A DNA stretch of 29,059 nucleotides. Source: a virus. Within the stretch, counting starts at the first letter, position 1; each line of letters starts with the position of its first letter. Below are positions 7,774 to 29,059 of the stretch, piece by piece. The stretch spans positions 1-29,059 of IMG/VR virus record IMGVR_UViG_3300037502_001154; one strand, 5' to 3'. The notes below the pieces were generated by a model. The model did no database searches and was not told the DNA's origin. It saw only the letters and a list, made by a program, of their open reading frames with translations. A program made the translations under genes and the position numbers.

Positions 7774-7774
7774 T

Positions 7775-7812: not shown

Positions 7813-7822
7813 TGGAGGAATT

Positions 7823-8056
7823 ATGAACATTGCAAAATTACTACTATCCCTTGATAATCAATATCGAGGACATTATCAAACAACTATCAAAGGACTAACA
7901 GTAGAACAAGGAATGGAGATTTGTCGATTTCTTGAAAAAGAATTTGACAACCAAGAAAGCTTTGTGTTAGAACTATGGACAGATGGCAATTTCACCATCT
8001 ACAAGAAAGATGGGATTGCTTCTGGACAAGATCAAATTATTCTGGCAACATGTTGA
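7823..8056 (+). CDS. Small hypothetical protein, 77 aa
   Basis: First gene after the nrdA terminator. ATG 7823 follows GGAGG (7814-7818); the frame extends upstream to a TTG at 7745, but that would read through the terminator hairpin and is rejected. The 77-residue product (begins MNIAKLLLSLDNQY) has a helical first half (VEQGMEICRFLEKEF) and a strand-rich end (FVLELWTDGNFTIYKK). No recognised family. It probably shares the 7745 promoter with the RNA ligase gene. Confidence 0.65.
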   Translation: MNIAKLLLSLDNQYRGHYQTTIKGLTVEQGMEICRFLEKEFDNQESFVLELWTDGNFTIYKKDGIASGQDQIILATC

Positions 8057-8068
8057 GGAGGATATGTA

Positions 8069-8995: not shown

Positions 8996-9186
8996 AATCT
9001 ATAATTGAAAAGATTGAAGAGCAGCTTATGGAATCAAAGAAATTTGAAGAGTTTTACACAGAATCTGCTGAGAAAGCTCATGCTGCTTGGAACCTAGAAC
9101 AAGCTTCATTCTTTCGTAGTGAAGCTTTCTATCAGAAACGCTTACGTGAAACGCTTTATAAACTAATTGATAAAGAGGGAGAATAA
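8992..9186 (+). CDS. Small hypothetical helical protein, 64 aa
   Basis: A 64-residue, highly charged and apparently all-helical protein (begins MKSIIEKIEEQL), whose ATG overlaps the RNA ligase stop (ATGA). There is no strong ribosome site, so it is probably translated by coupling to the ligase. No motif is recognised. Confidence 0.6.
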   Translation: MKSIIEKIEEQLMESKKFEEFYTESAEKAHAAWNLEQASFFRSEAFYQKRLRETLYKLIDKEGE

Positions 9187-9188
9187 AT

Positions 9189-9398
9189 ATGAAAGTAGAA
9201 AAAGCTGAAGCTAAATTTACCCCCGTTGTTATCACTTTGGAGAGTCAAGAGGAAGTTGACCAAATGTATGCTCTTGCAAATTGTGTCAGTGTTAAACGGG
9301 AAACCAATATTACATTTGATTTATTTGATGCCCTAGAACATCTCCACAAAGATGGAGATAAATACAGCCTAGAAGGCTCGGTCTTAATTAAATCGTAG
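9189..9398 (+). CDS. Small hypothetical protein, 69 aa
   Basis: The last gene of the rightward operon, starting 2 nt after the previous stop with GAGGGAG upstream. The 69-residue product (begins MKVEKAEAKFTP) has alternating strand/helix character (VVITLESQEEVDQMYALANC) and no known motif. The convergent late-gene terminator begins right after its stop codon. Confidence 0.6.
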   Translation: MKVEKAEAKFTPVVITLESQEEVDQMYALANCVSVKRETNITFDLFDALEHLHKDGDKYSLEGSVLIKS

Positions 9399-9439
9399 AC
9401 AACAAAAAGCCCCACCAAGCAATCAAGCCTGAGTGGGGC
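9399..9439 (-). terminator. Terminator of the leftward late operon
   Basis: A hairpin with arms GCCCCAC (9409-9415) and GTGGGGC (9433-9439) and a loop of about 17 nt. Read on the - strand it is followed by TTTTTGTTGT (9408-9399), a proper U-tail. On the + strand the tail is AATATTCTG, so it does not look bidirectional. It lies exactly between the convergent early and late operons. Confidence 0.75.
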
Positions 9440-9480
9440 AATATTCTGAGGAATTATTTGTCTATTTAAAATAGCTTCTT

Positions 9481-9843
9481 TTATTTATTCACGATATTCG
9501 TGTTAGTGTTTGTAACTCTGGCTGGAGTAGTCCTCTTAGCCTCAAGAGCTTTCATTCTTTCTTCTAGAACATCAACTCTTCGACTCATATTAACCTGATA
9601 GCTGTCTTGATTAGAAGCAATCCGGTTGGCCTTATCCTCCAAGTACATAAAATTAGATTGATTTACTTTATTTACTTCCCGCCGCAACTCATACAAAGCT
9701 ACTTCGTAGTTTGAAAAGTCTGATCTATAATTGTCATTCCTCAAAAGAATAGTCATTATGGTGATGGCAAGAAGAAGGAAGGTGCAGTTTACAGTGAGGT
9801 TTAATGTTTTCCAAAACAAGTCGCCTTTCCTTCTGTCTGTCAT
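9481..9843 (-). CDS. Small membrane protein with coiled-coil tail, 120 aa
   Basis: One hydrophobic segment at about residues 14-35 (LNLTVNCTFLLLAITIMTILL) preceded by positive charges (MTDRRKGD), so an N-in topology is likely. A long charged, coiled-coil-prone stretch follows, then a Thr/Asn-rich end. This single-span plus coiled-coil layout repeats in the gene just upstream at 9850. They are the last two genes of the late operon, after the lysis cassette. Possible roles are lysis timing or superinfection exclusion, but the family is not recognised. Confidence 0.65.
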   Translation of the reverse strand: MTDRRKGDLFWKTLNLTVNCTFLLLAITIMTILLRNDNYRSDFSNYEVALYELRREVNKVNQSNFMYLEDKANRIASNQDSYQVNMSRRVDVLEERMKALEAKRTTPARVTNTNTNIVNK

Positions 9844-9849
9844 TTTGAA

Positions 9850-10128
9850 TTACTTCTTATCTAAATAGAAAGTAAGGATTTGCCTCACGTCTGCTCTGAT
9901 AGCTTCATTATTATTAGTAAGGCGAGTCTCTAGTTCTTTAAGCTCTGTCTTAGTAACAGAAGTTCTATAAAGTTCTAACACTTTCGTATTAAGCTCTTTA
10001 ATTTCTTGTTTTGATTCATTCTTATCTGCCCAATACTGTGTCTGTACAACACCAAGCAAAATCATGAGAAGACCAATAGCAGCCCTCTCCCATAAATTAT
10101 TGATTCGGTGGTTTGCACTATCACTCAT
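9850..10128 (-). CDS. Small membrane protein with coiled-coil tail, 92 aa
   Basis: The chosen ATG at 10128 follows GAGG (10141-10138) by 9 nt; a TTG at 10143 would add five residues but lacks a ribosome site. One transmembrane segment lies near residues 18-36 (IGLLMILLGVVQTQYW), then a charged coiled coil to the end (ELETRLTNN, FYLDKK). The ribosome site and start overlap the stop of the o-spanin remnant (10121-10279), so before the AP2 gene arrived this gene was probably coupled to the o-spanin gene. Function unknown. Confidence 0.65.
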   Translation of the reverse strand: MSDSANHRINNLWERAAIGLLMILLGVVQTQYWADKNESKQEIKELNTKVLELYRTSVTKTELKELETRLTNNNEAIRADVRQILTFYLDKK

Positions 10129-10279
10129 TGTATACAGCCTCAATTTCAGTTTTATACTTACGTTGCTTTTCTAGTAGAAGCATGTACTTACCAACACAAG
10201 ACGTATTGGTTACGTAGCCTTTTGCAAGAAAGGACTTGACAACGCTGTTTGTTTTTAAATAGTATAACCTTTTCACCAT
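10121..10279 (-). pseudogene. Orphan duplicate of the o-spanin 3' end
   Basis: Translating the - strand from about 10246 to the TGA at 10121-10123 gives a peptide containing YVTNTSCVGKYMLLLEKQ then RKYKTEI. This aligns without gaps, over 31 residues, to the C-terminus of the lipoprotein gene at 10953-11231 (YISNTICIGKYRLLLDKQ then KKYKDQI); 17 of the 31 are identical. No signal peptide or lipobox is present. The first in-frame ATG (10279) only adds unrelated residues, so this looks like a severed original 3' end rather than a functional gene. The AP2 gene lies between the two copies. Confidence 0.75.
10236..10265 (+). promoter_or_regulatory. Putative promoter of the AP2 gene
   Basis: A perfect -35 TTGACA (10236-10241), an 18-nt spacer and TAGTAT (10260-10265); an overlapping TATAAC at 10263 would need a 21-nt spacer. 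It faces rightward, against the late operon, directly before the AP2 gene that otherwise has no co-directional transcription. Confidence 0.4.
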
Positions 10280-10293
10280 ATAAGGGAACCATA

Positions 10294-10962
10294 ATGAAAT
10301 TTGTTCAAAACGTGGGTAAGAATGATGCCGAATATCCAGTAAACCCCCTAGTCAATGGTAAAAGAGAAATCTGCCCATTTTACCGTACTTGGGTTGACAT
10401 GCTTACTCGGTGTTACAATCCTAGGGTTAAGCAAAAGCAACCAACCTACTCAAACTGTACAGTTTGTGAAGAATGGCTAACATTCTCAAAATTCAAAGCT
10501 TGGATGGAACTCCAACGCTGGCAAGGTATGCGGCTAGACAAAGACCTGTTATACCCAGGTAATACTCAGTATAGTCCCCAGACTTGCGTATTTGTCCCAA
10601 ATGCTATAAACTGTATCTTTGGGACATGCGGGGCTTCTCGTGGCGAATATCCAATTGGAGTGTCTAAAGACAAGATTTCGAAGGATATGGTAAATTTTCT
10701 TAAGAAACCGTTCAGGGCAGCCGTTCAAACCTTAAGTGGCACACGTAAACACTTGGGTATGTATGCTACCGCAATGGAGGCCCATGCCGCATGGCAACTG
10801 GCAAAAGTAGAAGTTATTCGTGAGTATGTATTGTGGTGGGAGTTTGAACCAGCTGTGAGCCAAACTTTTAATATTAAGATAGCAGAAAACTTACTATCTG
10901 TAGCAACAAATATAGAGAAAGACTTACAACAGCGCGTAGAGACTGTCAGATTCTATTTTTGA
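10294..10962 (+). CDS. AP2-domain homing-type nuclease in opposite orientation
   Basis: A 222-residue protein on the + strand inside the leftward late operon. The first part (FYRTWVDMLTRCYNP, TVCEEW, LDKDLLYPGNTQYSP, TCVFVP) follows the pattern of phage HNH/His-Me-like proteins that precede AP2 domains, although a classical HNH triad is not obvious. The second part from about residue 125 is an AP2-like domain (PIGVSKD, PFRAAV, LGMYATAMEAHAAW). ATG 10294 is used; the in-frame start at 10249 has no ribosome site. The 3' end overlaps the o-spanin stop by 10 nt tail-to-tail. It separates that gene from the duplicated 3' remnant, so it appears to be a recent mobile insertion. Nuclease activity is inferred. 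Confidence 0.75.
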   Translation: MKFVQNVGKNDAEYPVNPLVNGKREICPFYRTWVDMLTRCYNPRVKQKQPTYSNCTVCEEWLTFSKFKAWMELQRWQGMRLDKDLLYPGNTQYSPQTCVFVPNAINCIFGTCGASRGEYPIGVSKDKISKDMVNFLKKPFRAAVQTLSGTRKHLGMYATAMEAHAAWQLAKVEVIREYVLWWEFEPAVSQTFNIKIAENLLSVATNIEKDLQQRVETVRFYF

Positions 10963-11231
10963 TATAGGTTTAGAATCTGGTCTTTGTACTTTTTCTGTTT
11001 ATCTAGTAAAAGCCTATATTTTCCTATACATATGGTATTGGAAATATAGGCTTTTGATAAACTTCTAACAGTCTCACCAGCTTCAATAGCCTCACAAGGG
11101 TCAACAAGGAGGCTATCAGGCATCACATGCACTCTATCTTTGTATACTGTTATCGAAGCTTTGTTTGAGCATCCTGACAAGCTCAACAGGAAGAGCATCG
11201 TCAAGCCCAGCAACATTGTTTTCTTGAACAT
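10953..11231 (-). CDS. Rz1-like o-spanin lipoprotein
   Basis: A 92-residue protein with a lipoprotein signal: basic start MFKKT, hydrophobic core LLGLTMLFLLSL and lipobox LSGC, which predicts processing at Cys21 and anchoring in the outer membrane. The mature part has a few more cysteines (VDPCEAIEAG, NTICIG) and a basic coiled end. It begins inside the i-spanin gene in another frame (98-nt overlap), the classic Rz/Rz1 embedding. The two proteins would fuse inner and outer membranes in the last step of lysis. Its C-terminal part is duplicated downstream, beyond the AP2 gene, and may be a donor-derived replacement. Confidence 0.8.
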   Translation of the reverse strand: MFKKTMLLGLTMLFLLSLSGCSNKASITVYKDRVHVMPDSLLVDPCEAIEAGETVRSLSKAYISNTICIGKYRLLLDKQKKYKDQILNLYQK

Positions 11232-11547
11232 TGTCTTCTCTCTTTGGCTTATCTTGTTTAATAGGCTTACTTGGAAGTTTGTCTATCTCTGTCAGAATAT
11301 CCTTCTCTTTTTGATCAAGAACACCCTTTTCCTCAATGAAATCAGATACTATTTCTTCTTGAATCTTGCAAGCTGTCTCTTGATTCAGCATGGAGCTTTC
11401 AAGCGATTTGTAGTCTGTTTTTAATTGAGTTAGTTGACTTTCTACCACTGCTTTTTTAGAGTAAAATGTGTACGAGAGATAACCAAACAATCCATTGAAA
11501 GAGAGGGAAATAAGAAGTGCAAGAATAAGTGGTTTATTTAGAATCAT
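11134..11547 (-). CDS. Rz-like i-spanin
   Basis: A 137-residue inner-membrane protein: an N-terminal transmembrane helix (PLILALLISLSFNGLFGYL), then a periplasmic coiled coil (SQLTQLKTDYKSLES onward) and a charged linker region. This is the layout of Rz-type i-spanins, which bind the outer-membrane o-spanin. ATG 11547 is preferred because AAGGAGG lies 9 nt upstream; the extended start 13 codons earlier is inside the holin gene without a site. The o-spanin gene begins within its 3' third. Classified by topology and context, as spanins share little sequence. Confidence 0.8.
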   Translation of the reverse strand: MILNKPLILALLISLSFNGLFGYLSYTFYSKKAVVESQLTQLKTDYKSLESSMLNQETACKIQEEIVSDFIEEKGVLDQKEKDILTEIDKLPSKPIKQDKPKREDNVQENNVAGLDDALPVELVRMLKQSFDNSIQR

Positions 11548-11794
11548 CTTCCATTCCTCCTTTACACTCTTGCCTAATATCATCAAGCCCCTGATCTATT
11601 ACTCTACCTATCAGACCTAATAAACCTAAAGGTAGAGTAATCGCTAGTAAGATTGGTAAACTAACCTGAACACTTATAACGCCCACTATTGAAAGTCCGG
11701 TTACGCTGAGAGCTACAAGAATGTTTGCAATAATGGAAAGACTAGAATAAGATTTAAGGAGTCTTTGCTTCCAGTTCTTTGCGAGCTTTTTCAA
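11534..11794 (-). CDS. Holin candidate, two transmembrane segments
   Basis: About 86 residues with two hydrophobic segments (SIIANILVALSVTGLSIVGVI and SLPILLAITLPLGLLGLIG), a basic N-terminus and a charged tail after GRVIDQ. That plan fits small phage holins of the DUF7940-like kind. It lies between the endolysin and the spanin pair, where a holin is expected. No ATG exists near the start. TTG 11794 has GAGG at 6-nt spacing and is preferred; TTG 11815 would lengthen it by seven residues. It overlaps both neighbours. A SAR endolysin next door could also pair with a pinholin. Confidence 0.7.
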   Translation of the reverse strand: MKKLAKNWKQRLLKSYSSLSIIANILVALSVTGLSIVGVISVQVSLPILLAITLPLGLLGLIGRVIDQGLDDIRQECKGGMEDDSK

Positions 11795-12326
11795 ATTCCA
11801 CCTCAAATGCTTCAAATGCTTTTTGTTTATCCCAACTCAGCTCACCGAGACAATACGACATTGTGTTCTGTCTTCTAGTGACAAGACCTCTCAGTGTCCT
11901 ACCGCCAGCATATACCCATCGCGTAAGCTGTCTACAAGCCTCTACGTGTTTGTTTTGGTTCAGTAGCTTAATGAGGGTACTGCTTCTGACATTCCCCAGT
12001 CCTACGTTAAAGGTGAAGTCTGTAAGAGATTCTTTCTGCCATTCTGACGCATAGGGAACTTTGACAACAGAATCTAGTTGCCTTTGATGTTTCTTCCAAT
12101 CTTCGGCAAACATTTCCATACATTCTTCAATGCTGAATTTCTGCCCAAGTTTAAGAGAGCGATCCATTCTTCCAACGCATACAGTTGGTAAGTTAACAGG
12201 GTCTAAATATACTTCTTGATGAAACCCTTCGCTGGGGAGTGTTAAATCATAAGCAACAAAAGCAGCAGAGCTAGAAAGCCCCGCTGCAATAAAGGCTACT
12301 ATGAGTTTTTGTTTTAAAGGGTGCAT
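11754..12326 (-). CDS. Endolysin, GH24 lysozyme with N-terminal SAR segment
   Basis: Hydrolyses peptidoglycan. The 190-residue protein carries the T4-lysozyme-type catalytic triad Glu33, then eight residues to Asp42, then five to Thr48 (SEGFHQEVYLD, PVNLPT). Later family landmarks are FTFNVGLGN and LTRWVYAGG. The N-terminus is a weakly hydrophobic Ala/Gly/Ser-rich helix (LIVAFIAAGLSSSAAFVA) directly before the catalytic Glu, as in signal-anchor-release endolysins of P1/P21 type, so export by Sec and activation by membrane release are likely. ATG 12326 starts 1 nt after the stop of the 44-aa gene upstream and is probably coupled to it. Confidence 0.9.
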   Translation of the reverse strand: MHPLKQKLIVAFIAAGLSSSAAFVAYDLTLPSEGFHQEVYLDPVNLPTVCVGRMDRSLKLGQKFSIEECMEMFAEDWKKHQRQLDSVVKVPYASEWQKESLTDFTFNVGLGNVRSSTLIKLLNQNKHVEACRQLTRWVYAGGRTLRGLVTRRQNTMSYCLGELSWDKQKAFEAFEVEFEKARKELEAKTP

Positions 12327-12327
12327 C

Positions 12328-12462
12328 CTAAACTTTAACTCGAACAAAAGAAGCAATTGTGCCGTTTCCAGCAACAGTAAACTTAACTCTAGCAGTAATC
12401 AAAATTCCACCTATTCTGACAAATCTTTTAATGTGTTCTGGTTTAAATTCAAACTGTCTCAT
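12328..12462 (-). CDS. Small 44-aa gene between tailspike and endolysin
   Basis: An open frame from ATG 12462 to TAG 12328. The start overlaps the tailspike stop and the end is 1 nt from the endolysin ATG, leaving no unused bases. The product (begins [14 protein letters not shown]) has a beta-strand-like second half ([23 protein letters not shown]). No strong ribosome site is present (GCGGAA only). It could be a real small fibre accessory protein, or the frameshifted last strand segment of the tailspike. Its tight fit between two genes is the main support. Confidence 0.5.
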
Positions 12463-14446
12463 AAGTTCCGCTTACAGAAATAGTTCTCGTTACACTATTT
12501 TGGTCAGCCCCTGTTAATGTTCTAGTAGTGGTGGCTGTGTCAAAAATACGCAGTTGCACTGTAGATGCACCGGCAAGAATACGACCAAATGCTACGTAAG
12601 AAGTGGCTCCATTAACAACTCTTCCAAAATGTTCCCAAAATACTCCAGATGCTGCTGCTGGGAATGGTAGATTAATATTCAACGCCCCAGTACCTGCTCC
12701 TTCATCGCCCCCATCACCATCGAAGAAGATTGTATAGTGAACAGTTTTTCCGAACTTCTTATACTTAGCAAAAGTTGTTGAATAATTCGGAACAGTGTTT
12801 CCCGCGCCACCCACCAATGAAATGGTAGGGGTAAAATCATCCCAAGAAAGTAAAGAATTTCCATAAAGAAAGTCCCCAAACACCTCTCCAGAATCTGTGA
12901 TACCACAAAGTTTAGAATGCGCTGGAATTACTTCTAAATCATATGTACCAAAACCATAGAAATAATTTTTACGAATAAAATGAGTGCCGTCTTCTAAAAC
13001 CGCTGTTTTAGACACAGAACAGTCATAGAAAGCCATCCCAGCAGGAAAATCATTATTAGCTAATGCGTCAAAAATAATACCGTTACTTGTCACCTCTGGC
13101 TTATGGTCAAAATGACAACGATAGAAACTACAAGAGTCTACGAATTTAAACCATGCGCATGTCGCATCAGTAGCACCTGATACTGTTTCAATCCTGACGT
13201 TTCGGAACTGACTAATCCACGTATCATTTTGAACAGAGTAAACACCGTCCATAAAGAGACCAATTGAATTGGCGCTAAGAAGTGCAATGTTAATGTTCTC
13301 AAATACGTTGAAAATATTATAGTTGCCAGTAGGTGCGGCGCCGCCGAGGATAGTCAACCCATTGCTTTTTGGGTTTACGATTTTGATGTTTTTGACTGTG
13401 CAGCCGCTAAATGAGGTTAAATCCATACCACCGGCGGCGCCTTGACATTCAAAGAAAATACCAGAGACTTCACAATCGGAGATTTGACCTCTAACACTAA
13501 CCATAGAAGATGTAGTAGAAGCACCATTCCAACTAAGGATAGTTGGGACACCTGCTCCACTTACAGCGAACCCCGCACCTTGACCGACAAGCTTAATACC
13601 ATTCCTAGTAGAAGGTGTAGTTCCACCATTACCGTCCCCAATAGTAATCTGGGTATTAAGCTTGTAAGTTCCACCAGGAATACGAACCGTACCCCCTTTT
13701 AGGGGAAGAGCATTAATAGCAGCTTGAATAAAGGCGGTATCGTCACTAACACCATCACCTTTAGCACCAAATTGTTTTACGCTCCATTCATTGTTAATTA
13801 CAAATTTCCATCTTCCACCATCAGTGGCAACGATGATAGAACCACCATTATCTGCACTCGTAGTATCGTCGGCATCCAGATAATAGGCGCCACCGCCGCC
13901 ATCGCCTTTTGCATAATAACCAGTGACAAAAGCACGAGTATATTTCGTTTTATCTAAAGCTTTTAGACCTGTAATATTATCAACAACTCTATTCAAACGA
14001 GACTTTAATTGTTGGGCTAAAGTATTTCCATCAAAACCTACTAATGCTGCGCCTTTTAAAATATCTGAAGTATTTGCGATATTAGTAATGGATAATTCTA
14101 CGGCATCTAATCTAGAATCTGTTTGAGTAGATGTATCTATTTGAACTAAGGATGTGCCATTGAATTGATAGGTCTGCCCTGTTGATCTAACAACTATTAT
14201 AAACCATTTTGGAACTGGGGAAGAGAAATAAGTTGTTCCTACTGCAAAATAAAGTCTGTTATCAGTAGTTAGATAATGGGCTTCACCATTAACAGCAGCA
14301 GGTAGGGAGGATGTAATACTATCTACATTTCTATCAAACATAAAAGAAAACTTTAAAAGGTTTTCGTCCATGCCTCCGTTCCAGTTATTTTCTCCAAAAT
14401 TCCAGCCATATTTTCCTTCAACCCAAGGAGATGTTTGCTGTGGCAT
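12449..14446 (-). CDS. Tailspike with pectate-lyase-like beta-helix
   Basis: A 665-residue receptor-binding and probable polysaccharide-degrading spike. Residues 1-105 form an attachment domain ([34 protein letters not shown]). After a coiled neck ([16 protein letters not shown]), the Pectate_lyase_3-like helix begins with [19 protein letters not shown] and [13 protein letters not shown] and continues with repeated short strands to about residue 530. The C-terminal 120 residues (from [10 protein letters not shown]) look like a separate beta-sandwich, perhaps a trimerisation or carbohydrate-binding module. The start has AAGGATAAAAT before ATG. Catalytic residues cannot be assigned by eye. The sugar target would set host range. 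Confidence 0.9.
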
Positions 14447-14455
14447 ATTTTATCC

Positions 14456-14821
14456 TTATATTAAATCAGGGGGGTTAGGTCTTGCGGAGATGTCTGTAAA
14501 ATTCGGATGCTCTGGAAGAGAACGAAGAGCTTTTCTGTAGCCTCTCCAATCAGCTACAGAGCCTCTTGCTTTTGGGTCTGCATCTTGAACTTTATTTAAT
14601 TCATAATCAGCACGTTTAAGCTCATCATCTCTCCAAAGCCGTTCAATAATTTCTAGTCCAGCTTTAGAAATTATTTTTTTGGAAAAATTCCCATTAACAT
14701 ACTGCATACCGATTTGGACAGAGGAATCAGCTACTACCCATTTTAATGAAGAGTGATATTTTTCAGTCGGGTCTTCACCAGTAATTTCTTTCACTTCATT
14801 ATCAACAATTAATGCCCACAT
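14456..14821 (-). CDS. Tail fibre assembly chaperone-like protein
   Basis: A 121-residue protein. The C-terminal half has the pattern of phage tail-fibre assembly proteins: RLWRDDELKRADYELNKVQD, then WRGYRKALRSLPEHP and a proline-rich end. ATG 14821 follows GGAG at 8 nt and lies just after the stop of the glycine-rich protein; a TTG 5 codons earlier is unlikely. It sits between the glycine-rich tip gene and the tailspike gene and probably helps fold or attach one of them. Confidence 0.8.
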   Translation of the reverse strand: MWALIVDNEVKEITGEDPTEKYHSSLKWVVADSSVQIGMQYVNGNFSKKIISKAGLEIIERLWRDDELKRADYELNKVQDADPKARGSVADWRGYRKALRSLPEHPNFTDISARPNPPDLI

Positions 14822-14822
14822 A

Positions 14823-15713
14823 TCACCACTCCACAATAATTACACCTGTTGCGCCTGAACCAGAAGATGCAACAAAAGAACTAACTCCACCACCGCCACC
14901 ACCATAACCCTTACCATTAGATTCACCATCAAAGCTTCCACGGCCCCCTGGCCCGCCACCAGTGCCAGAGGAAGCTCCACCATCAGACCCATCTCCCAGA
15001 CCATCATTCAGATCGCCGCCCACCCCTGCGCCGCTAACACCACCTGCTTCTGCGCCAGCTTCTCCACCACCGCCACCGCCACCTGTGGCACTACAGAAAG
15101 TACCAAAGCTACTAGAGCCACCGGCAGTTCCTGTTCCCCCAAGGTCTGATGTTCCTGCTCCACCACCACCGACAGTGATAGAAATATTTGACATATTGGT
15201 AAGATCAACAAATTTAATAGCGCGACCACCACCGCCACCGCCACCTCCCCTTAAAGACGTTGCAGTTCCACGACCACCACCGCCACCGCCACCTATGACA
15301 GTGACTTTTGGTTTCTTGATTCCCAATTTAAGAATTGCAGGTACTGTCCAAGTTGTGCTAGCAGTAAAAATGGTCAACCCATTGACCGCCAATTCCGCCC
15401 AAAAAACTTCGGAAACATCAGTTACAGGGTTTTGATTGGTGTGTGTTTGAATGGCTACATAAATTTTACCATTACTACCTTGAACATAAGATTTACTAGC
15501 TTGATACTCTGTTACATTATCCCAAACAGCAATACCATGTTGATTGATGTGTGCAATGGCTTCATCTTGACGGTTATCAAGATAGTTGAACCACTGTCGT
15601 GGTGGAATCTCAACTTGCCAACCAGTTGCGTATTTAGTATTGCCTGGATCAAGAATATCACCACCAGACGCCCATGTAAGACTTAGATTTGAAGGCTTTA
15701 AGATTTCAGCCAT
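14823..15713 (-). CDS. Glycine-rich tail tip/receptor-binding protein
   Basis: The first 110 residues resemble the N-terminal domain of many phage tail proteins (WASGGDILDPGNTKYATGW, PPRQWFNYLDNRQDEAIAH, NQHGIAVWD). From residue 145 the protein is dominated by glycine blocks of seven or eight residues separated by variable Ser/Thr/Ala/Asp loops, ending SGATGVIIVEW. Polyglycine-II lattices with exposed variable loops are known from T4-like S16 gp38 adhesins, so a receptor-contacting tip is a reasonable inference. The glycine blocks are encoded by near-identical GC-rich DNA, which stands out against the AT-rich surroundings. It lies between the DUF2612 gene and the fibre chaperone. Confidence 0.8.
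   Translation of the reverse strand: MAEILKPSNLSLTWASGGDILDPGNTKYATGWQVEIPPRQWFNYLDNRQDEAIAHINQHGIAVWDNVTEYQASKSYVQGSNGKIYVAIQTHTNQNPVTDVSEVFWAELAVNGLTIFTASTTWTVPAILKLGIKKPKVTVIGGGGGGGRGTATSLRGGGGGGGGRAIKFVDLTNMSNISITVGGGGAGTSDLGGTGTAGGSSSFGTFCSATGGGGGGGEAGAEAGGVSGAGVGGDLNDGLGDGSDGGASSGTGGGPGGRGSFDGESNGKGYGGGGGGVSSFVASSGSGATGVIIVEW
15064..15294 (-). repeat. Direct repeats encoding polyglycine blocks
   Basis: The same 21-bp unit occurs at 15064-15084, 15226-15246 and 15274-15294 (each begins ccaccaccg and ends ccacct on the + strand). A related copy lies near 14886-14910. All encode glycine runs of the tip protein. Confidence 0.85.
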
Positions 15714-15731
15714 AATATTTATTCCTCAGAT

Positions 15732-16523
15732 TTAAAATAGTGTTGCAAACTGGCCACCGCCAGCGTTTGAAAAGTCAGAATCACCATATCCAACTCCGTA
15801 CCCAAGACCCCACCCAAATGTTCCACTAAACTCTCCAAAACCTTTAGCGCCAAGAGCACCTTGAAATCCAAAGTAGTCGTCAACCTCAAACCATCCGAAA
15901 TTGATCCTGACTCCCACAGTTTTAGGAATAAGTCTTGAAGGGTATCCTTGACTTGTTGAAATGTAATTCAAAAGCACTTGTTCAAAAGCTGATAGTTCTC
16001 TTCCAAAAAGAATGGTATATTCAGCATTTCCTTCTGCTAAAATGGCCGTGGTACTGGTGCCAAACAAGAAGTTAATGAAAGCTATAAATTCTTCTGGTGT
16101 GGAGGCTGTTCTATTTTTTAAAATCTTCGCTTTAATGAACAATCTGTATGTTTCATCGTCTAGAAGGACATTTCCGCCAAGAGGTGTTCCGAAATCATAA
16201 AACCTGCTCCCGGTCACTGGGAAACCAAAGTCACCAAAAGTATCTGCTTTCAATGCACCTTGGAATCCGAAGAAATTGAAAAGATCGGCACTGATAAGTT
16301 CTCTAGGTTGACCTACAATTTCTCCAATGATATCCAGTGTTGCACCAGTAGCTTCATCAATGCTTCGCTTTTGAATCAGGTCTTTAAATACATCTTGAAT
16401 CTGTGTTTGCTGGTCAATCAGAAGCTGTATATAACGATCAATGATTTCTTTATTTTTGAACTGTTCACCAGTGCGTGATCTAGCTTCGGATAGATAATCT
16501 TGTTCACTAAAACCTACAAGCAT
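15732..16523 (-). CDS. DUF2612 baseplate/tail protein
   Basis: The N-terminal 170 residues match the DUF2612 pattern by eye: LSEARSRTGEQFKN, a helical QTQIQDVFKDL, then TGATLDIIGEIVGQPR, LLDDETYRLFIKAKIL and FINFLFGT. Family members sit after the J-like baseplate gene in contractile tails and probably connect fibres to the baseplate. An aromatic/glycine motif FGFQGAL-A--FG-F occurs twice, before and after the DUF core, and the C-terminus is very Gly/Phe-rich (FGWGLGYGVGYGDS). It starts with ATG after GGAGGGAAC. Confidence 0.82.
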   Translation of the reverse strand: MLVGFSEQDYLSEARSRTGEQFKNKEIIDRYIQLLIDQQTQIQDVFKDLIQKRSIDEATGATLDIIGEIVGQPRELISADLFNFFGFQGALKADTFGDFGFPVTGSRFYDFGTPLGGNVLLDDETYRLFIKAKILKNRTASTPEEFIAFINFLFGTSTTAILAEGNAEYTILFGRELSAFEQVLLNYISTSQGYPSRLIPKTVGVRINFGWFEVDDYFGFQGALGAKGFGEFSGTFGWGLGYGVGYGDSDFSNAGGGQFATLF

Positions 16524-16532
16524 GTTCCCTCC

Positions 16533-17993
16533 TTAGACCACATTTACCGAAATATTCACACTTTCAAAAGAGGCAAGCTCGTTGAAATCAATTACAATAT
16601 TTGATGTTGAAGCAGGAGAAGGGGTTGTACCAATAAACAAGCTATCAATCTGGTGCCCTGGAACAGCGTTGATTGGGGTAAAGAGTCTGGAATAGATAAC
16701 ATCCTTACCCACACCAAAATTATCATCTGCATAAGAGATAATAGAATCTTGAATCTGTTCGACTCCATTGCCGGGGAAAGGAGTCGGAGCTTCAGGATTA
16801 AGACTCAATGTCATTTCAATGTAAATAGTTACTGGGTTTGGTCTTTCAAAACCAATGTTATGAGGGAAACCTTGACTATCAATAACCGATACGACAGTAT
16901 TCCCTTGACTGCGGATACCCATCGGCTTATTTTCCCAAATAGTGTCAGCAATCAATTGTGAACTGCCACCAAGAACCACAGGAAGGAAACTGTGAGGAAG
17001 AACCCCATTAGAATCTGTAATATCTGTATCGTTTTCGTAGATTTGTACTTCTTCAACACCTTCTAGATTAAGAAGTGCTGAGTATAAACTATCAAGAATG
17101 TTTGAACTTCTTTCAAGCTTGGTGTTTCTGAAACGAATCCGTAGCTCTTCGTCAGTTTCCAAAAGCCTACCTGGGGAAGCAGCAATAGGGTTAGTGATAC
17201 TATCCCACCCAAAGACCGGAGTTACAATTTGATTAATTGTGTTAGCTTCTTGCTCAATTGCACCATCTTCTACTGCTTGTAACTGCCCCGTCTTCCTTAC
17301 TTTAGTAATGCTCAGATTGCCAGTTGTTGTGAAAGTTGACGTTTGAAATACATCAGCAAGGTTAATTACCAGCGTGGTTCCTACAACAGATGCAACAAGA
17401 AGCGGATGAGAACTTGAAATTAGGGACTGTAATCCGTTTAGAATTTCTGTTTCAGTGGCACTTGAGTCAGAAGTATATGTAACAGTAGAGCTTCCTGTGG
17501 TGCCAGTAGTATACGTAATACGGTACTGTGTAGCGTTTGAAACACTGTTAACTACAACTGTTACGCCAGCAGCCAGAGATGGGGAAAGAGCAACACTTCC
17601 AATAACACTAAACTCGTTATCATCTGCTGATTTTACAACGCTTCCGCCAAGAATCAAAGTTCCGTTATCACCAGCAAATAATCCAACTGCTGTTGAAGCT
17701 GATGGCCCAAATCTTGAAATGCCACCATACTGAACTATATTATCTAAAGAAACCCCTGTTGCAGAGTTTGGATCAAGAGCTGTCCAACTTTGTTGAGCAA
17801 CTTCCCAAAGATCAGCGTCACCAGCAGCATCCAGGGCAATCAATCTACCAAGAAGGCTATCGGGAGACGTATCTACGACATCGCCTGGGACCGTCAAATC
17901 TTGAAAAAGTTCTACTGCTTTTTGTCTTTGTTCTGTAAGAATGTCTTGTAGGCGTTTAATTGAAAAGCCTGTTTCTGAAATTCCAAAAGCCAT
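16533..17993 (-). CDS. Baseplate J-like wedge protein
   Basis: A 486-residue Baseplate_J family protein (P2 gpJ / T4 gp6 relatives), which forms the wedge ring around the hub. The start (GISETGFSIKRLQDIL, GDVVDTSPDSLLGRLI, LDPNSATGVSLDNIV) and the centre (GRLLETDEELRIRFRNTK, LNLEGVEEVQIYEND, SFLPVVLGGS) are characteristic. The middle 150 residues, rich in Ser/Thr/Val, form an insertion typical of the family. It is flanked by gp25-like and DUF2612 genes, the usual order. ATG with GGAG upstream. Confidence 0.92.
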   Translation of the reverse strand: MAFGISETGFSIKRLQDILTEQRQKAVELFQDLTVPGDVVDTSPDSLLGRLIALDAAGDADLWEVAQQSWTALDPNSATGVSLDNIVQYGGISRFGPSASTAVGLFAGDNGTLILGGSVVKSADDNEFSVIGSVALSPSLAAGVTVVVNSVSNATQYRITYTTGTTGSSTVTYTSDSSATETEILNGLQSLISSSHPLLVASVVGTTLVINLADVFQTSTFTTTGNLSITKVRKTGQLQAVEDGAIEQEANTINQIVTPVFGWDSITNPIAASPGRLLETDEELRIRFRNTKLERSSNILDSLYSALLNLEGVEEVQIYENDTDITDSNGVLPHSFLPVVLGGSSQLIADTIWENKPMGIRSQGNTVVSVIDSQGFPHNIGFERPNPVTIYIEMTLSLNPEAPTPFPGNGVEQIQDSIISYADDNFGVGKDVIYSRLFTPINAVPGHQIDSLFIGTTPSPASTSNIVIDFNELASFESVNISVNVV

Positions 17994-20406: not shown

Positions 20407-21206
20407 TGCGTAGTCCTTAATGGGTCACTATCGTTCACAGCATCTTTCTTTGTCTGAGAGTCTGTATTGTCAGCAGAGTTTGGGTCTTTAGGTGTAGAGT
20501 CGCACTTACCTAGACTTGTTTTACTTTCAGCCTTCTTTGTTAAAGCTTGTGTAACTCTACGCGGAATTTCTACTTTCTTCAGATAAGCAAACGTAACTTG
20601 TTCAAAGCTGATATCACAGAACAGAGCAAAACCGGAGTCTGTATTCTCATTGAATGTAATGTTTGTGATTACAAGGTTATTGATAATCTTCTTTAGGAGA
20701 CTTCCGTCAAACTCATAAAGCTGAACAAGTTCAATGTTACTGTCAAACTGACCCGTCTCTTCGTTGAAGATAACGCCAGATGTTAGGTTAATCAGTCCTT
20801 GCTTAATCTGTTCAAGCAAATCAGCTCTAGCCGCATCCATCGTAGTTTCTGGACTTCTATCTGGCAGAAACTGTCCAATAGAGTCTGGGATAAACTTTGT
20901 AAGAATACTATTATCTGTACTTTGAACAGAAACAGGATTTGGGGCTTGTGTAGCATTGAAAGCAAAGTTACCGTCAATATCTTGAATCAAATACTTCCCT
21001 GTAGAAATATCAATCCCTGAGATAACAGCAGAGATTGTCCACTTACTATTATCTTTCGTATAATGGTCAGTAATGGAGGCTCCAGAATCTATCGGGTGTT
21101 TACTTATTTGACCACTATGTGTCTCCGTTATTAAGAGAACTGCATCAAAATATACAAACCCGCCAGAGTTAGGAGAATCACCCCCCCACTTTATTGCATA
21201 GGTCAT
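20403..21206 (-). CDS. Dit-like baseplate/tail hub protein
   Basis: A 267-residue protein starting MTYAIKWGGDSP; the N-terminal beta-rich part (VYFDAVLLITETH, WTISAVISGIDISTG) is typical of Dit-like proteins of short contractile tails, which link the tube to the hub. The end is a charged, Ser/Asp/Lys-rich disordered tail. ATG 21206 has GGAGGGG (21219-21213) at 6-nt spacing; the ATG five codons upstream is inside that site. The first 29 bases overlap the end of the zinc-ribbon/GIY-YIG gene, including a run of seven G (21187-21181). Confidence 0.78.
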   Translation of the reverse strand: MTYAIKWGGDSPNSGGFVYFDAVLLITETHSGQISKHPIDSGASITDHYTKDNSKWTISAVISGIDISTGKYLIQDIDGNFAFNATQAPNPVSVQSTDNSILTKFIPDSIGQFLPDRSPETTMDAARADLLEQIKQGLINLTSGVIFNEETGQFDSNIELVQLYEFDGSLLKKIINNLVITNITFNENTDSGFALFCDISFEQVTFAYLKKVEIPRRVTQALTKKAESKTSLGKCDSTPKDPNSADNTDSQTKKDAVNDSDPLRTTQ

Positions 21207-22179
21207 TCTCAACCCCTCCATACTTTTTGTAAATTTGAATTATAGTGTCCATATTATGTAAGTAAGTGGTTTCAGACCATCCATCGGGCAAGATATCTTT
21301 TCCTACAACACCTCTATCTAGAGTTAATTTACACTCCCTCTCTGCTGCTTTACAATCCATGGAAGATTTAAAATAGAATACGTACAAAGATTTTACATCA
21401 ACTGAAGACATAACTTTTTGTCGAGCCAATCGTTTCTTAGCCGCAGATGATATACCAAACTTTACACATAGAGGTGTGTCTCCATCAGAAACTAAGTTTA
21501 TATAAGCTTGCCTTTGCTTATAGTGGGAACAATCGCAACAGGCTGTGCCCATTTGTAAACAGTCTGATGTGGTTTCCCCTTGAGATTCACATACAGGGCA
21601 ATACACATTCCAATAAATTGCCCTGTTCTGCTTAGTCTTTCTCTCACTTCTCCAAAACTTAGTATCGGGATGGAAAGCACCAGAAGCGAAGAAAGACGCA
21701 ATCATTTCTGAGTCTGGTTTTATTTTAGAAGCCCTAAGCGCATCTTGACGACAAGCGGGACACCCACTGCTATTAGCTACAAGGGAGTGAGCACTACCTG
21801 TTCTCCACTCACCATGTTTCTCGCAAGATAGGATAAGTTTAGTATTATACCCATTGAACTCCCCTTGCCAGCCAAAGAAAGTATAATTTAAATCTTTCGC
21901 TTTCCTTTCACATAGGATTTTCATCTGATCTTCAGACCATACGACACGTTCTGCACATCCACAAGGAATTTGACCTTTCTTAAGATTACCTTTAATGCTT
22001 TTGAACAACCCATCGCCAAACAATTCTGGGTCTTGTTTGCAGATAGAGCATTGAACTAAATAGAGTTTGTGACTGGATTGTTTCCCACTCCAACCTATAA
22101 CTTCCAGTTGCTGTTCATCGCCAAATCTTTCGCCACAAAAATTATCCTGAAAGACTTCGCCAAAATCTTCATAATTCAT
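21178..22179 (-). CDS. Zinc-ribbon repeat GIY-YIG-type homing nuclease
   Basis: 333 residues. Three similar zinc-ribbon modules come first (VQCSICKQ with PCGC; LSCEKHGEW with GCPACRQ; YCPVCES with CCDCS), resembling DUF723/CapR-type DNA-binding repeats. From about residue 225 a GIY-YIG-like domain of the T5orf172 kind follows (AYINLV, CVKFGISSAAKKRLARQ, a glutamate in AAERECK). Such proteins are mobile site-specific nucleases. The gene separates tape measure from Dit-like, has its own promoter inside an inverted repeat, and its 3' end encodes the ribosome site of the Dit gene. Strand-cleavage activity is inferred from fold pattern. Confidence 0.8.
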   Translation of the reverse strand: MNYEDFGEVFQDNFCGERFGDEQQLEVIGWSGKQSSHKLYLVQCSICKQDPELFGDGLFKSIKGNLKKGQIPCGCAERVVWSEDQMKILCERKAKDLNYTFFGWQGEFNGYNTKLILSCEKHGEWRTGSAHSLVANSSGCPACRQDALRASKIKPDSEMIASFFASGAFHPDTKFWRSERKTKQNRAIYWNVYCPVCESQGETTSDCLQMGTACCDCSHYKQRQAYINLVSDGDTPLCVKFGISSAAKKRLARQKVMSSVDVKSLYVFYFKSSMDCKAAERECKLTLDRGVVGKDILPDGWSETTYLHNMDTIIQIYKKYGGVENDLCNKVGG

Positions 22180-22229
22180 TGAATTTCTCCGTAAAATAAA
22201 ACTAATATTCTACACTAAAATTATGAAGA
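22166..22229 (-). repeat. Inverted repeat over promoter and start of the zinc-ribbon gene
   Basis: A perfect 11-bp inverted repeat: TCTTCATAATT at 22166-22176 and AATTATGAAGA at 22219-22229 (+ strand), 42 nt apart. The gene-proximal arm covers codons 2-5. The distal arm lies in the promoter spacer, and the -10 box and GGAG site are in the loop. Confidence 0.75.
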
Positions 22230-22235
22230 AATCAA
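22207..22235 (-). promoter_or_regulatory. Promoter of the zinc-ribbon GIY-YIG gene
   Basis: Reading leftward: TTGATT (22235-22230) immediately after the tape-measure stop, a 17-nt spacer and TAGAAT (22212-22207) continuing as ATTAG. The 11-bp -10 region and spacer length are identical to those before the GIY-YIG gene at 27229. Confidence 0.6.
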
Positions 22236-25241: not shown

Positions 25242-25750
25242 TAAATAATCCCCTCAAGAGCTGGTAGTGCAGATGTTGCCAAATTAACAATATCTTGTAG
25301 AATGCTAGACGGGTCTTGGTTACTACCGATATTAATGACACCTTGACTACTTCTAAGTGTCCAAGTTCTTCCATCAATTCCGTTCGACTTTACAATTGGA
25401 GGGGGAGTTTCAATCCAAGTTGTAGTTGAGAAGAATAGGTCTGTTCCGCTGCCATCTTTCATCATCAAAGGGAACTTACCCCTTTGTGTGATTTCATCCA
25501 ACTGCCAGAATTTGGTAAGAATGTCGTTTGAAACACTACCATTGTGGATTGTGAAACTAATGGTGTACATCTGACTGTTGTTGTATCGTCTACTAACTGT
25601 GCCATCCGCTGTAACTGTAGACGTGTACGGATTAACGTCTTTAGTGATTTCAATGAATGTTCCATCAACAAAACCACTAAGAGGGATGCCATATACCAGA
25701 AATACAACTTCTTCAGGAATGTAGTTAAAAATCTCTAAATCAGAGGCCAT
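25241..25750 (-). CDS. Tube-like protein, second DUF3277-type paralog
   Basis: 169 residues with the same core: YIPEEVVFLVYGIPLSGF, GTFIEITKD, SNDILTKFWQLDEIT, MKDGSGTDLFFS and a GRTWTLRSS strand. It has a strong AAGGAGAGG site. It lies downstream of a hairpin-bearing 71-nt gap that separates it from the first paralog, so its expression level could differ. The end overlaps the third paralog. Divergence from its neighbours is high, which argues for distinct roles rather than recent copying. Confidence 0.82.
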   Translation of the reverse strand: MASDLEIFNYIPEEVVFLVYGIPLSGFVDGTFIEITKDVNPYTSTVTADGTVSRRYNNSQMYTISFTIHNGSVSNDILTKFWQLDEITQRGKFPLMMKDGSGTDLFFSTTTWIETPPPIVKSNGIDGRTWTLRSSQGVINIGSNQDPSSILQDIVNLATSALPALEGII

Positions 25751-25778
25751 ATCCTCTCCTTAAATTTAAAAGGAGAGA

Positions 25779-25803
25779 GGGAGAAGGAAAATCCCTTCAT
25801 CCC
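25779..25803 (-). terminator. Hairpin between first and second tube-like genes
   Basis: Stem GGGA/TCCC plus GAAGG/CCTTC with one bulged base and a 6-nt loop; on the - strand it is followed by TCTCTCCTTTTAAATTT, an imperfect U-tail. It could be a partial terminator or an mRNA 3' stabiliser for the first, presumably abundant, protein. The rest of the gap 25751-25821 holds only the next ribosome site and a TCTATATAGA palindrome. Confidence 0.5.
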
Positions 25804-25821: not shown

Positions 25822-26352
25822 CTACTGATTACTCAGAAGCCAACGATCCGCTACTTCACCACCAACGGCATTCACAGCAGCAACAGCAGCTTCATCCATT
25901 GGAGTATTGCCGCCAATGTAATTATCTGTGTTGAACATGAACAGAGTCCAATCACGCATCTCTGTAGTTGAAGACAGAGCTACATCAGGGGTAGTTGCAA
26001 TGATGGTTTGGTTAGAGAAGAAGTAAGTCTGACCACTATTGTCTTTGATAGTGCAGCTCACCACCCAAGTGTTATCGTCAGTTTCTTCATCGGCGCGTTG
26101 CAGAGCTTGCAGAACATAATTTGATTGGCTATATTGGTGTAGGCTGATAGTTACGTTCATAGAACGGTTACGACGCTTGACCCGACCGCCGGTGAGGTCA
26201 CTGCCAATATAGGGTTCTGAGGCCGCTACTAACCTCGATGCGTTTATGAAAGTTCCCTCAGCATAGCCAGTAACGGTGTGGACAAAATCACCTTTGGAGA
26301 GTACAATGCTTACAGCTTCGGGGCTGTAATTCCCAATTAGAATATCGCTCAT
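25822..26352 (-). CDS. Tail tube protein, first DUF3277-type paralog
   Basis: A 176-residue protein directly downstream of the sheath gene apart from the intervening GIY-YIG gene, the usual place of the major tube gene. Family pattern: NYSPEAVSIVLSKGDF, GTFINASRL, RNRSMNVTISLHQYS, NYVLQALQRADEE, IKDNSGQTYFFS, EMRDWTLFMFNTDNYIGGN. Best candidate for the major tube subunit because of position and the hairpin that follows. Its ribosome site GAGGAA (26368-26363) lies inside the last codons of the GIY-YIG gene. Confidence 0.85.
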   Translation of the reverse strand: MSDILIGNYSPEAVSIVLSKGDFVHTVTGYAEGTFINASRLVAASEPYIGSDLTGGRVKRRNRSMNVTISLHQYSQSNYVLQALQRADEETDDNTWVVSCTIKDNSGQTYFFSNQTIIATTPDVALSSTTEMRDWTLFMFNTDNYIGGNTPMDEAAVAAVNAVGGEVADRWLLSNQ

Positions 26353-26353: not shown

Positions 26354-27229
26354 TTATATTAATTCCTCGCTATCTACGTATCTTATATTTGCAGAATTGC
26401 TTTTTAATCGATTATAAAGAATTTTCTTGGTATATTCTGTGCTTCTAATAGCTTCTGCTACTGAACCATAGATAACCCCGTCTACTTCTACAGCCCTTGA
26501 ATTGTGATGAAGAAAACCTGTTCTACCTTTCATATGATTATCTTCACCACTATTGCCGCGTTTACGAAATTTCTCTTCCACGGCACCATCTTTAACTCTC
26601 TTGATTAGAGTCATCCTTTCTTGACCAAGAGCACTGCAAGCATTAGATAACGTATCAAACCAAAACCCACCAACGTAAATAGGTTTCTCCAATGAATCTT
26701 TACTTAATCTCTGAACATCGCCCAAAGTACCGTCTTTACGCCATCGTCTCAATTGGTTCATACCTCTCCCAAGCGCTTTACTGGCGTCTTCTAAGTGAGG
26801 AAACCAAAATCCTGAGACATAGTGAGGATCATACTTTTTTCTTCTTCCCAGTTTGATACCACGATTCCATGGAATATTTTCAGAATAGAACTTATTAAGC
26901 CCATCGGAGATTTTCTGTTTCATTTCTTCCGACAAACACATAGCACCCGTCTTTGGGTTTCCTAAGACTAGATTATATCCGTGTTCAATACTGTTGTACG
27001 CAATTATAGCCTTCTCTTCTAGCTCGATTATGTATTCTTCAGAGCCTACACAAATTACTTCAAAAACAAAGTTTTCCTTTCCATGCTTCTGAATCGCATG
27101 CTTAATCTTCGTGCACGTAGAGTTCTTACTCAGATGATCTTTGAACCTTCGTTTAGGGTTACTAGTCATGCCAATGTAGACTTTTTGATTTATTACGTTG
27201 GTTATCTTGTATAGATAGAATTTTTGCAA
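26354..27229 (-). CDS. GIY-YIG homing endonuclease with NUMOD-like repeats
   Basis: 291 residues. The N-terminal GIY-YIG domain has FYLYKITN, KVYIGMTS, the arginine of NPKRRFKDH, the metal-binding glutamate in the IELEEKAII region and YNLVLGN. A NUMOD3-like helix follows (SEEMKQKISDGLNKFYSE). Then come two copies of a G-FWF motif module (VSGFWFPHLEDASKALG and VGGFWFDTLSNACSALG) and a related third (VDGVIYGSVAEAIRS), probably helix-turn-helix DNA readers. Translation starts at TTG 27229, 8 nt after AGGAGG (27243-27238). It lies between sheath and tube genes, with its own promoter in an inverted repeat. Confidence 0.9.
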   Translation of the reverse strand: MQKFYLYKITNVINQKVYIGMTSNPKRRFKDHLSKNSTCTKIKHAIQKHGKENFVFEVICVGSEEYIIELEEKAIIAYNSIEHGYNLVLGNPKTGAMCLSEEMKQKISDGLNKFYSENIPWNRGIKLGRRKKYDPHYVSGFWFPHLEDASKALGRGMNQLRRWRKDGTLGDVQRLSKDSLEKPIYVGGFWFDTLSNACSALGQERMTLIKRVKDGAVEEKFRKRGNSGEDNHMKGRTGFLHHNSRAVEVDGVIYGSVAEAIRSTEYTKKILYNRLKSNSANIRYVDSEELI

Positions 27230-27295
27230 AACGTAAACCTCCTATTTTTATGAATGAGAGCCTAATATTCTAAAGTAAAAGGCTACGTTTTGCAA
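27224..27295 (-). repeat. Inverted repeat over promoter and start of the GIY-YIG gene
   Basis: A perfect 12-bp inverted repeat: TTGCAAAACGTA at 27224-27235 and TACGTTTTGCAA at 27284-27295 (+ strand), 48 nt apart. The gene-proximal arm contains the TTG start codon; the distal arm contains the -35 box. The -10 box and AGGAGG site lie in the loop. Confidence 0.8.
27267..27295 (-). promoter_or_regulatory. Promoter of the GIY-YIG gene
   Basis: Reading leftward: TTGCAA (27295-27290), a 17-nt spacer and TAGAAT (27272-27267) followed by ATTAG. The -10 region TAGAATATTAG is identical to that at 22212-22202. The -35 lies in the distal arm of the inverted repeat. Confidence 0.6.
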
Positions 27296-27304: not shown

Positions 27305-28585
27305 TCAAATACCAAGGAAGCCTTCAATAACGATCTTATGAACAGCCCCAGCTAGACGAGCACGGAACTTGAAAGCACCTGCAATACGTTGAGCACGAAG
27401 ATTCTGAGGGATACTCAGAACGTCTGGAGTAGTTACAGTCCAACCGCGATCAAATGCACCATTGGCCTCGCCTTGAGACAGTACACTACGAATTTCATTC
27501 TCGATAATGGTCAGGCCGGGATTGGTCATCGGAACCTTGAGGGTATTAATCAGGCGGAAGAAGATTTGCTCTTGTAGACGGGCATATGTCCAGTCCACAA
27601 CAATTTGTTCATCAATGAACAGACCATCACCCATAACGCTGTCTTGGAAGATATCAACACCACCAACTTCGGTGTACATGTTGCAATTCTTATTACGCAG
27701 ATTAACGCGCTGGGTGTCAGTCAGATTACTTACAGTAACCAGAGCGCCACGCTTGAAGTTCCAAGTATTAGAACCGGGGGTGTAAGCTAGCTGAGAGCCA
27801 ATCCAAGCTGCTTCTGGATATTCGGTGTCGGCAGTTGGCAGGTATACACAGAAAGTACGACCATAGTTACCAGCATCAAGGAAAGAAGCGATATCAGTGG
27901 TTGCTGTGGTTGGTACAGCAGGATTCTGAGTAGAAGTACCATAAATCTTACGGCGGGTTTGAATAGCAGCAGCAAGAGCCTCTACATCTGCTTGTACGTG
28001 AGTTTCAGCAACCAAGGCATACCAAGTGTTGTTTACTTCAGTAACAGCATCAAGAGCTTCAACCCAAGTCTCTGTTGGAGCAGTGTCAACTTTAGTCAGG
28101 TTGCTAGAAACAGCAATTGACCAAGCAGTACCGGGAGTAGTAACTTCTACAGTTAGAGTACCTAGGTTATCTGTAACGGTGATACCAGCAAGAGCGCCAA
28201 TAGCGGTGGCCAGACCAGCAGTGATTTCAGAGGCAATTGCATCAGAGTCAGATACATAGCTGTAATCTGTACCATTAATGGTAACAGTGTAGGTGGTGTT
28301 GTTCGCAACAGTTGGAGTAATGGTTACTTCATCTACTTGGCGACGACCAACTACAACAGAAGGCACACGAGCGCCCGCTTGACCGAAGATACGCTGTGCA
28401 ATAACATAAACTTTATCTACAGAGTCAAAATCAGCAGCAATTGCATCAAAGTCAGTGTAGACACGAGCACGCTCAGCAAACTTCGTATGGGTAGACAGGA
28501 TCAAAGGAATTTGGAACGAGACGGTACTTACTGGCGTTGTTTCACGAGTAATTTGGATAGAAATAATTTGATCAAGTTCTGACAT
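27305..28585 (-). CDS. Tail sheath protein, DUF3383 type
   Basis: A 426-residue contractile sheath subunit. The N-terminus (IISIQITRETTPVSTVSFQIPLIL, SVDKVYVIAQRIFGQ, VPSVVVGRR) and C-terminus (WTYARLQEQIFFRLINT, IENEIRSVLSQGEANGAFDRGW, VTTPDVLSIPQNLRAQR) match the DUF3383 sheath family. A Thr/Val-rich inserted domain at about 90-165 (TPTVANNTTYTVTINGTDYSY) probably decorates the outside. The ATG overlaps the stop of the upstream GIY-YIG gene (TAATG) and uses a GAGG inside it (28596-28593). Confidence 0.93.
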   Translation of the reverse strand: MSELDQIISIQITRETTPVSTVSFQIPLILSTHTKFAERARVYTDFDAIAADFDSVDKVYVIAQRIFGQAGARVPSVVVGRRQVDEVTITPTVANNTTYTVTINGTDYSYVSDSDAIASEITAGLATAIGALAGITVTDNLGTLTVEVTTPGTAWSIAVSSNLTKVDTAPTETWVEALDAVTEVNNTWYALVAETHVQADVEALAAAIQTRRKIYGTSTQNPAVPTTATTDIASFLDAGNYGRTFCVYLPTADTEYPEAAWIGSQLAYTPGSNTWNFKRGALVTVSNLTDTQRVNLRNKNCNMYTEVGGVDIFQDSVMGDGLFIDEQIVVDWTYARLQEQIFFRLINTLKVPMTNPGLTIIENEIRSVLSQGEANGAFDRGWTVTTPDVLSIPQNLRAQRIAGAFKFRARLAGAVHKIVIEGFLGI

Positions 28586-29059
28586 TAGAGAACCTCTTTT
28601 GTTTGGGTTTGTTTTCTAAATTTTTCATAGAAGTGGAGAGTTATGTTCAATTTTTCAAGACACGTTTTCCTATCTGGAAACCAAAAATCTTGGATATATA
28701 CAGGCTCTTGATACTTTCTTTTAGGGTAAATGACTGATACACTGCCCAAAAGATTTCTCTTTTTCCTAAAAGCATACATACCAGCGCCCCAATTGAGGGT
28801 CTCTAAGGCTTTTCTTCTATTGGGAAACCACCAACCAGAAACAAAAACTGGTACATCATCAGACCTTGTTCCTATCTTCTTCCCTTTGTTTAATTGATTA
28901 TTCACAATGCCGCCATTGCATAAGTTGTAGCCGTGGCCGTTTGTTGCGTCACTGTTGTAAGCGACAATAGCTCTACTTTCTAGAGAGTAGATATAATCTC
29001 TACTTCCTACGCAAAGAACATTGAAAGTAAAATTTTCTTTTCCATATTTATTGACTGCT
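28585..29059 (-). CDS. GIY-YIG homing endonuclease, N-terminus outside window
   Basis: The frame stays open from 28585 to the window edge (first full codon at 29058), beyond a GTG at 28905 that is not the true start. The visible part begins in the GIY-YIG domain (AVNKYGKENFTFNVLC, VGSRDYIYSLESRAIVAYNS, GHGYNLCNGG), matching KHGKENFVFEVICVGS and IAYNSIEHGYNL of the gene at 26354. Two modules of the same FWF type follow (VSGWWFPNRRKALETLN and IQDFWFPDRKTCLEKLN). Its final codons hold the ribosome site of the sheath gene. Catalytic tyrosines lie outside the window, so intactness cannot be judged. Confidence 0.88.
   Translation of the reverse strand, partial: AVNKYGKENFTFNVLCVGSRDYIYSLESRAIVAYNSDATNGHGYNLCNGGIVNNQLNKGKKIGTRSDDVPVFVSGWWFPNRRKALETLNWGAGMYAFRKKRNLLGSVSVIYPKRKYQEPVYIQDFWFPDRKTCLEKLNITLHFYEKFRKQTQTKEVL

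Follow-up and report, generated by a model that had tools for sequence, protein, structure and literature searches.

A homing-endonuclease gene lodged in a phage tail operon raises the question of whether its translation depends on where the transcript begins, in the operon upstream or at a promoter of the gene itself. The locus was analysed in a window of 29,059 nucleotides (the whole stretch of DNA under study), a 29-kb virus contig that encodes a tail operon of the myovirus type on the - strand. There, a tail sheath gene (DUF3383; 27305-28585), the source of read-through RNA, is followed by a GIY-YIG gene (26354-27229; 291 aa, TTG start at 27227-27229) and a tube-like gene (25822-26352). 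The GIY-YIG product matched the Pfam GIY-YIG domain over the full profile (E 4e-11, residues 3-86, profile positions 1-78 of 78), PHROG 314, homing endonuclease (E 8e-36), and, weakly, the I-TevI DNA-binding domain of Pfam; the gene thus encodes a homing endonuclease with a GIY-YIG catalytic domain. Relatives of the sheath gene were found in 27 viral contigs. In three of them (L006, L016 and L023) the tube gene lies directly 3' of the sheath gene, leaving the site uninterrupted, and others carry a GIY-YIG or HNH/AP2 nuclease gene as an insertion at this junction. The GIY-YIG gene of the window is probably a mobile homing-endonuclease gene that has entered the junction of sheath and tube. No terminator-like site was found between the sheath stop codon and the endonuclease start, and at the DNA level known phages gave only 60-80% matches to the window, confined to the sheath. 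A second GIY-like gene is located on the upstream side (28585-29059, - strand); it overlaps the sheath start (TAATG) and its own start lies outside the window.

An earlier note on this DNA had pointed to a perfect 12-bp inverted repeat around the start of the gene, with the TTG codon in one arm, a -35 box in the other, and the -10 box and ribosome site in the 48-nt loop. The arms, 27224-27235 and 27284-27295, are indeed fully complementary and 48 nt apart, and they hold the TTG start (27227-27229, - strand) and the -35-like TTGCAA (27290-27295), respectively. The -10-like TAGAAT (27267-27272), 17 bp from the -35, and the Shine-Dalgarno (SD) sequence AGGAGG (27238-27243) both lie between the 12-bp arms, but RNA folding extends the stem to ~20 bp by pairing TTGCAAAACGTAGCCTTTTA (27276-27295) with TAGGAGGTTTACGTTTTGCAA (27224-27244), so that the SD, like the TTG, is paired and not looped out. 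In the leftward direction of transcription, TTGCAAAACGTAGCCTTTTA begins 9 nt past the sheath stop; TAGAAT comes next, inside the hairpin, and ~20 nt beyond it lies TAGGAGGTTTACGTTTTGCAA, which carries the SD and the start codon. The distal arm overlaps the -35, occupies most of the -35/-10 spacer and contains the anti-SD CCTTTTA. The predicted fold of the read-through RNA reaches -27 kcal/mol, compared with -14 +/- 2.9 for shuffled sequences (z = -4.5; 0/200 shuffles as low), and the cost of opening the start region was calculated as 17.8 kcal/mol in the long RNA vs 6.2 in the predicted short RNA. An Rfam scan of the window and the PAK_P4 region returned no known RNA family. The bare repeat is not rare, as the window has four distinct perfect 12-bp repeats of loop <=60 where about 0.4 would be expected, and the 9/12 match of the -35/-10 to consensus is at background level (4 found, 5.5 expected). 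Neither is remarkable alone; what carries the argument is that the arrangement recurs in related phages.

The proposed mechanism is that a long read-through transcript arriving from the sheath gene and containing both arms would form the ~20-bp stem over the SD and start codon, and with these hidden from the 30S subunit in vivo the nuclease would go untranslated from the tail-operon mRNA. A putative internal sigma70-type promoter, whose -35 coincides with or precedes the distal arm, whose -35/-10 spacer accommodates that arm and whose start point falls within the hairpin, would instead yield RNA without the distal arm, leaving the SD open. The expected outcome would be a nuclease that is on early, through host sigma70, and off late. 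This distinction between a closed read-through RNA and an open internal-promoter RNA, made in the earlier note, is supported by the comparison described below, and the predicted fold and opening cost, the geometry, the recurrence with covarying arms on unrelated nucleases and the concentration in structural operons, all read from sequence, make it probable that a switch set by transcript origin operates on this mobile gene. Ribosomes that terminate at the sheath stop, 9 nt short of the distal arm, might perturb the stem.

The same layout is found a second time in the window, at a CapR-GIY endonuclease gene located after the tape-measure gene (21178-22179, - strand). Its candidate promoter (TTGATT-17-TAGAAT, 22207-22235, - strand) is the top promoter match on the sense strand in the structural region of the window and holds in its spacer a distal arm, TCTTCATAATTT (22218-22229), that pairs with GAATTATGAAGA (22166-22177, - strand), at and just past the CapR ATG. 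In related contigs the layout recurs, with differing sequences, as a sigma70-like -35, a distal arm in a 16-18 bp spacer, a -10, and an SD/start in the proximal arm, and its carriers are unrelated nuclease genes in the tail operon (GIY-YIG, CapR-GIY, HNH/AP2). At the sheath/tube site it was found in L007/8, L009, L010, L011, L012, L013, L015, L017, L018 and L031 as well as in isolated Pakpunaviruses. When scored with a position weight matrix (PWM) from the annotated promoters of the relative PAK_P4, the candidate GIY-YIG promoter of the window ranked 11 of 16,962 sense positions, and the corresponding sites in 13 viral-contig loci ranked 1st-27th of about 4,700-17,000 sense positions. From the position of the -35/-10 relative to the distal arm, the candidate promoters of the layout loci are placed so that their own RNA would lack the 5' arm. 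Median opening costs over the tabulated loci, among them the L030 and L022 GIY genes, which lack the layout, were 13.9 (long RNA) vs 5.3 kcal/mol (predicted short RNA). In the weak members (L089_HNH7115, L114, L017 and the Ges254 CapR gene) pairing was barely better than with spacer-shuffled arms.

The layout is not universal: at the same sheath/tube site it is absent in L022, KIL1 and L030, the last of which encodes the closest protein relative seen (52% identity), and it was not found at GIY genes directly upstream of the sheath (L008, L016) or at the CapR genes of phi92, Kashira and SYP. Where a nuclease gene is not preceded by an operon on the sense strand, it can combine a strong promoter with the absence of such a hairpin, as in Pectobacterium phage DU_PP_I and at the window HNH gene 10294 (10229-10962, + strand, opposite to its neighbours), which has a strong promoter (TTGACA-18-TAGTAT) but no hairpin over its start.

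Enrichment was assessed in 20 relative contigs (whole or part) with 1338 called genes, including 98 nuclease genes defined blind to hairpins by iterated profile search and Pfam, with profile seeds among the first examples seen. Each gene was then scored for pairing of its start region with the spacer region of a promoter. The thresholds for promoter and pairing were set after the first examples had been seen, and scoring was identical for all gene classes. At a cut-off of -16 kcal/mol, and with counts corrected at contig edges (L097 and L129 were put into the structural class by hand), the layout was found for 13 of the 28 nuclease genes in structural operons and for 0/70 nuclease genes elsewhere. 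Non-nuclease genes gave 25/1240, comprising 22/960 outside structural operons and 3/280 within them, all three from G010, a contig with wrong operon bounds. Fisher tests gave 7e-9 and 6.5e-13 (9e-8 and 5e-11 with near-duplicates collapsed), values that overstate independence, as the loci are related and represent, by eye, about nine independent arm sequences. In the uncorrected table the picture was unchanged across thresholds from -12 to -20.

Covariation was examined in two sets of four sequences each. In four alignable loci, 94.7% of the cells of a 19-pair stem were paired, vs 38-51% when the arms were slid, and three stem pairs had changed on both sides. The 19-pair stem of the Pakpunaviruses was paired in 100% of cells, with one A-U to G-C change, although these four close sequences were alone not above shuffles. 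Prediction and covariation together indicate that RNA structure would hide the ribosome-binding site and start in upstream-initiated RNA. Furthermore, the control regions of the L013 GIY gene and the L018 HNH gene are 54/65 identical (83% over 65 nt), whereas the flanks are less alike (sheath ends 64%, downstream coding 49%), so that unrelated nucleases are evidently able to have the module in common. A broader reading, offered tentatively and with slightly less than even confidence, is that a portable promoter and anti-SD module, with the antisense arm in the spacer of an early promoter, has been acquired by unrelated homing-endonuclease families in late operons, giving early-on/late-off expression as a temporal mirror of T4. 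The design would be compact, a single 17-bp spacer serving both as promoter part and as antisense arm against the gene's own start, and suggests a route by which selfish nucleases inhabit strongly transcribed late operons without massive overproduction.

Evidence on timing comes from isolated phages. PAK_P4 has the same layout with a near-consensus promoter of the annotated early class; with the PWM built from annotated PAK_P4 promoters, the endonuclease promoter not among them, this promoter ranked 15th of ~186,000 positions, and within the structural region no sense-strand site ranked above it. By sequence-derived class, the window element is sigma70-like and the PAK_P4 element fits the annotated early-region promoters of PAK_P4. 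In PAK_P3 the structural region is transcribed mostly late, with early overexpression reported for five of its genes (PMC4933390), gp34 and gp45 among them; annotated promoters directly precede these two genes. We infer that the internal promoters act early, a timing borrowed from another genus. Since the promoter is early-like and the read-through comes from late structural genes, the timing is probably the reverse of that in T4. PAK_P4, JG004 and Adele can be grown and would permit a comparative test of why homing endonucleases time their own expression, which the T4 review leaves open. As a separate observation, the strongest promoter-like site of the window (25270-25302, + strand, TTGCCA-16-TAGAAT with TG) faces the tube genes in antisense orientation; early antisense RNAs over structural genes occur in PAK_P3.

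Similar arrangements occur in other systems. In IS10 and IS50, read-through RNA folds over the transposase start and RNA from the internal promoter does not, protecting the element from outside promoters. As predicted for the window, a mobile-element gene is closed in read-through RNA and open in internal-promoter RNA, but the gene there is a transposase of an insertion sequence with terminal repeats, and that of the window is a homing-endonuclease gene that stands free within a phage operon and has no element ends. Another such group is formed by I-TevI, I-TevII, I-TevIII and segB of T4 and mobE of Aeh1, homing-endonuclease genes within longer transcription units whose ribosome-binding site is hidden by RNA structure in upstream-initiated RNA and whose own-promoter RNA lacks the 5' arm (PMC2988022, PMC3014915). 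The parallel to I-TevI drawn in the earlier note thus stands as regards a hairpin in the long transcript with a promoter inside it, but probably not as regards timing: the endonuclease-specific promoters of T4 are middle or late, never early, and the silenced read-through is early/middle (PMC2988022), while in the window the promoter is sigma70/early-like and the read-through originates from late structural genes. Loci of the window type also differ from T4 in placing the distal arm within the -35/-10 spacer and in recurring on GIY-YIG, CapR-GIY and HNH/AP2 genes, one pair of which (L013/L018) shares a control region. In T4 genes e and soc the SD/start is likewise sequestered by RNA structure, and for gene e the long early transcripts are closed and those started at nearer promoters are not (PMC3014915); unlike the window nuclease, these are the phage's own genes with late promoters and not mobile nucleases. 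The GIY-YIG genes of the Pakpunaviruses PAK_P4, JG004, Adele and PaZq-1 share with the window the sheath/tube site, the protein family (38-40% identity) and the layout, and have arm sequences unrelated to those of the window. The insertion in Adele has been noted in a paper that nowhere uses the word hairpin in its text and mentions a promoter once, in connection with tRNAs (PMC12846349).

Other functions of the repeat were weighed against a switch set by transcript origin. A hairpin that merely silences read-through, next to a promoter match due to chance, would leave the nuclease essentially unexpressed or leaky and would agree with the background frequency of the -35/-10 match in the window; it is nevertheless unlikely, as promoter-like elements of high rank occupy an equivalent position with respect to the arms in the 13 loci, and in PAK_P4 a near-consensus early-class promoter stands there. 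A functionless chance repeat, for which the four perfect 12-bp short-loop repeats of the window would speak, is hardly credible in view of the z-score of the extended stem, the recurrence, the covariation and the enrichment. The ~20-bp stem is a plausible substrate for RNase III, which might cut it and thereby destroy or trim the endonuclease start in the read-through mRNA. Processing is known from T4, where RNase E acts on the segB and segG transcripts (PMC2988022), yet as the sole function it seems very improbable, since it leaves unexplained why one arm lies in the promoter spacer and why the stem covers the SD/start; it could act together with the main mechanism.

The earlier note also allowed for a DNA operator, at which the nuclease or another protein would bind the repeat and repress the promoter. 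The repeat does overlap the -35, I-TevI represses its own gene through an operator similar to its homing site (PMC2988022), and the window protein has the weak match to the DNA-binding domain of I-TevI. However, in comparison with three uninterrupted sheath/tube junctions, the one way in which this reading was examined, the region showed no likeness (p 0.15-0.97), and an operator resembling the homing site was rejected. Furthermore, the arm sequences vary from locus to locus with pairing kept, the proximal arm tracks the SD/start, and two invariant U.G pairs (four loci) as well as G-C to G.U changes pair as RNA and break a DNA palindrome. The operator thus went unsupported and is considered quite unlikely, and a switch set by transcript origin is the preferred reading.

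Several further elements were observed. In the window, a strong hairpin with an 8-nt loop (CTCTCTCCTTttaaatttAAGGAGAGG; 25751-25790, - strand) covers the SD of a structural gene starting at 25750 and has no promoter inside. Small, seemingly related genes in L125 (17109), L096 (3299), L104 (15462) and L098 (1652) have TTGACA promoters beside GC-rich terminator-like hairpins. Group I introns (Rfam RF00028) were detected in L021 (4003-4290), L019 (3972-4264) and L006 (3480-3765). The sheath gene is interrupted at one shared codon (about 326) in two of these relatives, the tube gene in the third; a 254-aa ORF that appears HNH-like by eye comes after the L021 intron.
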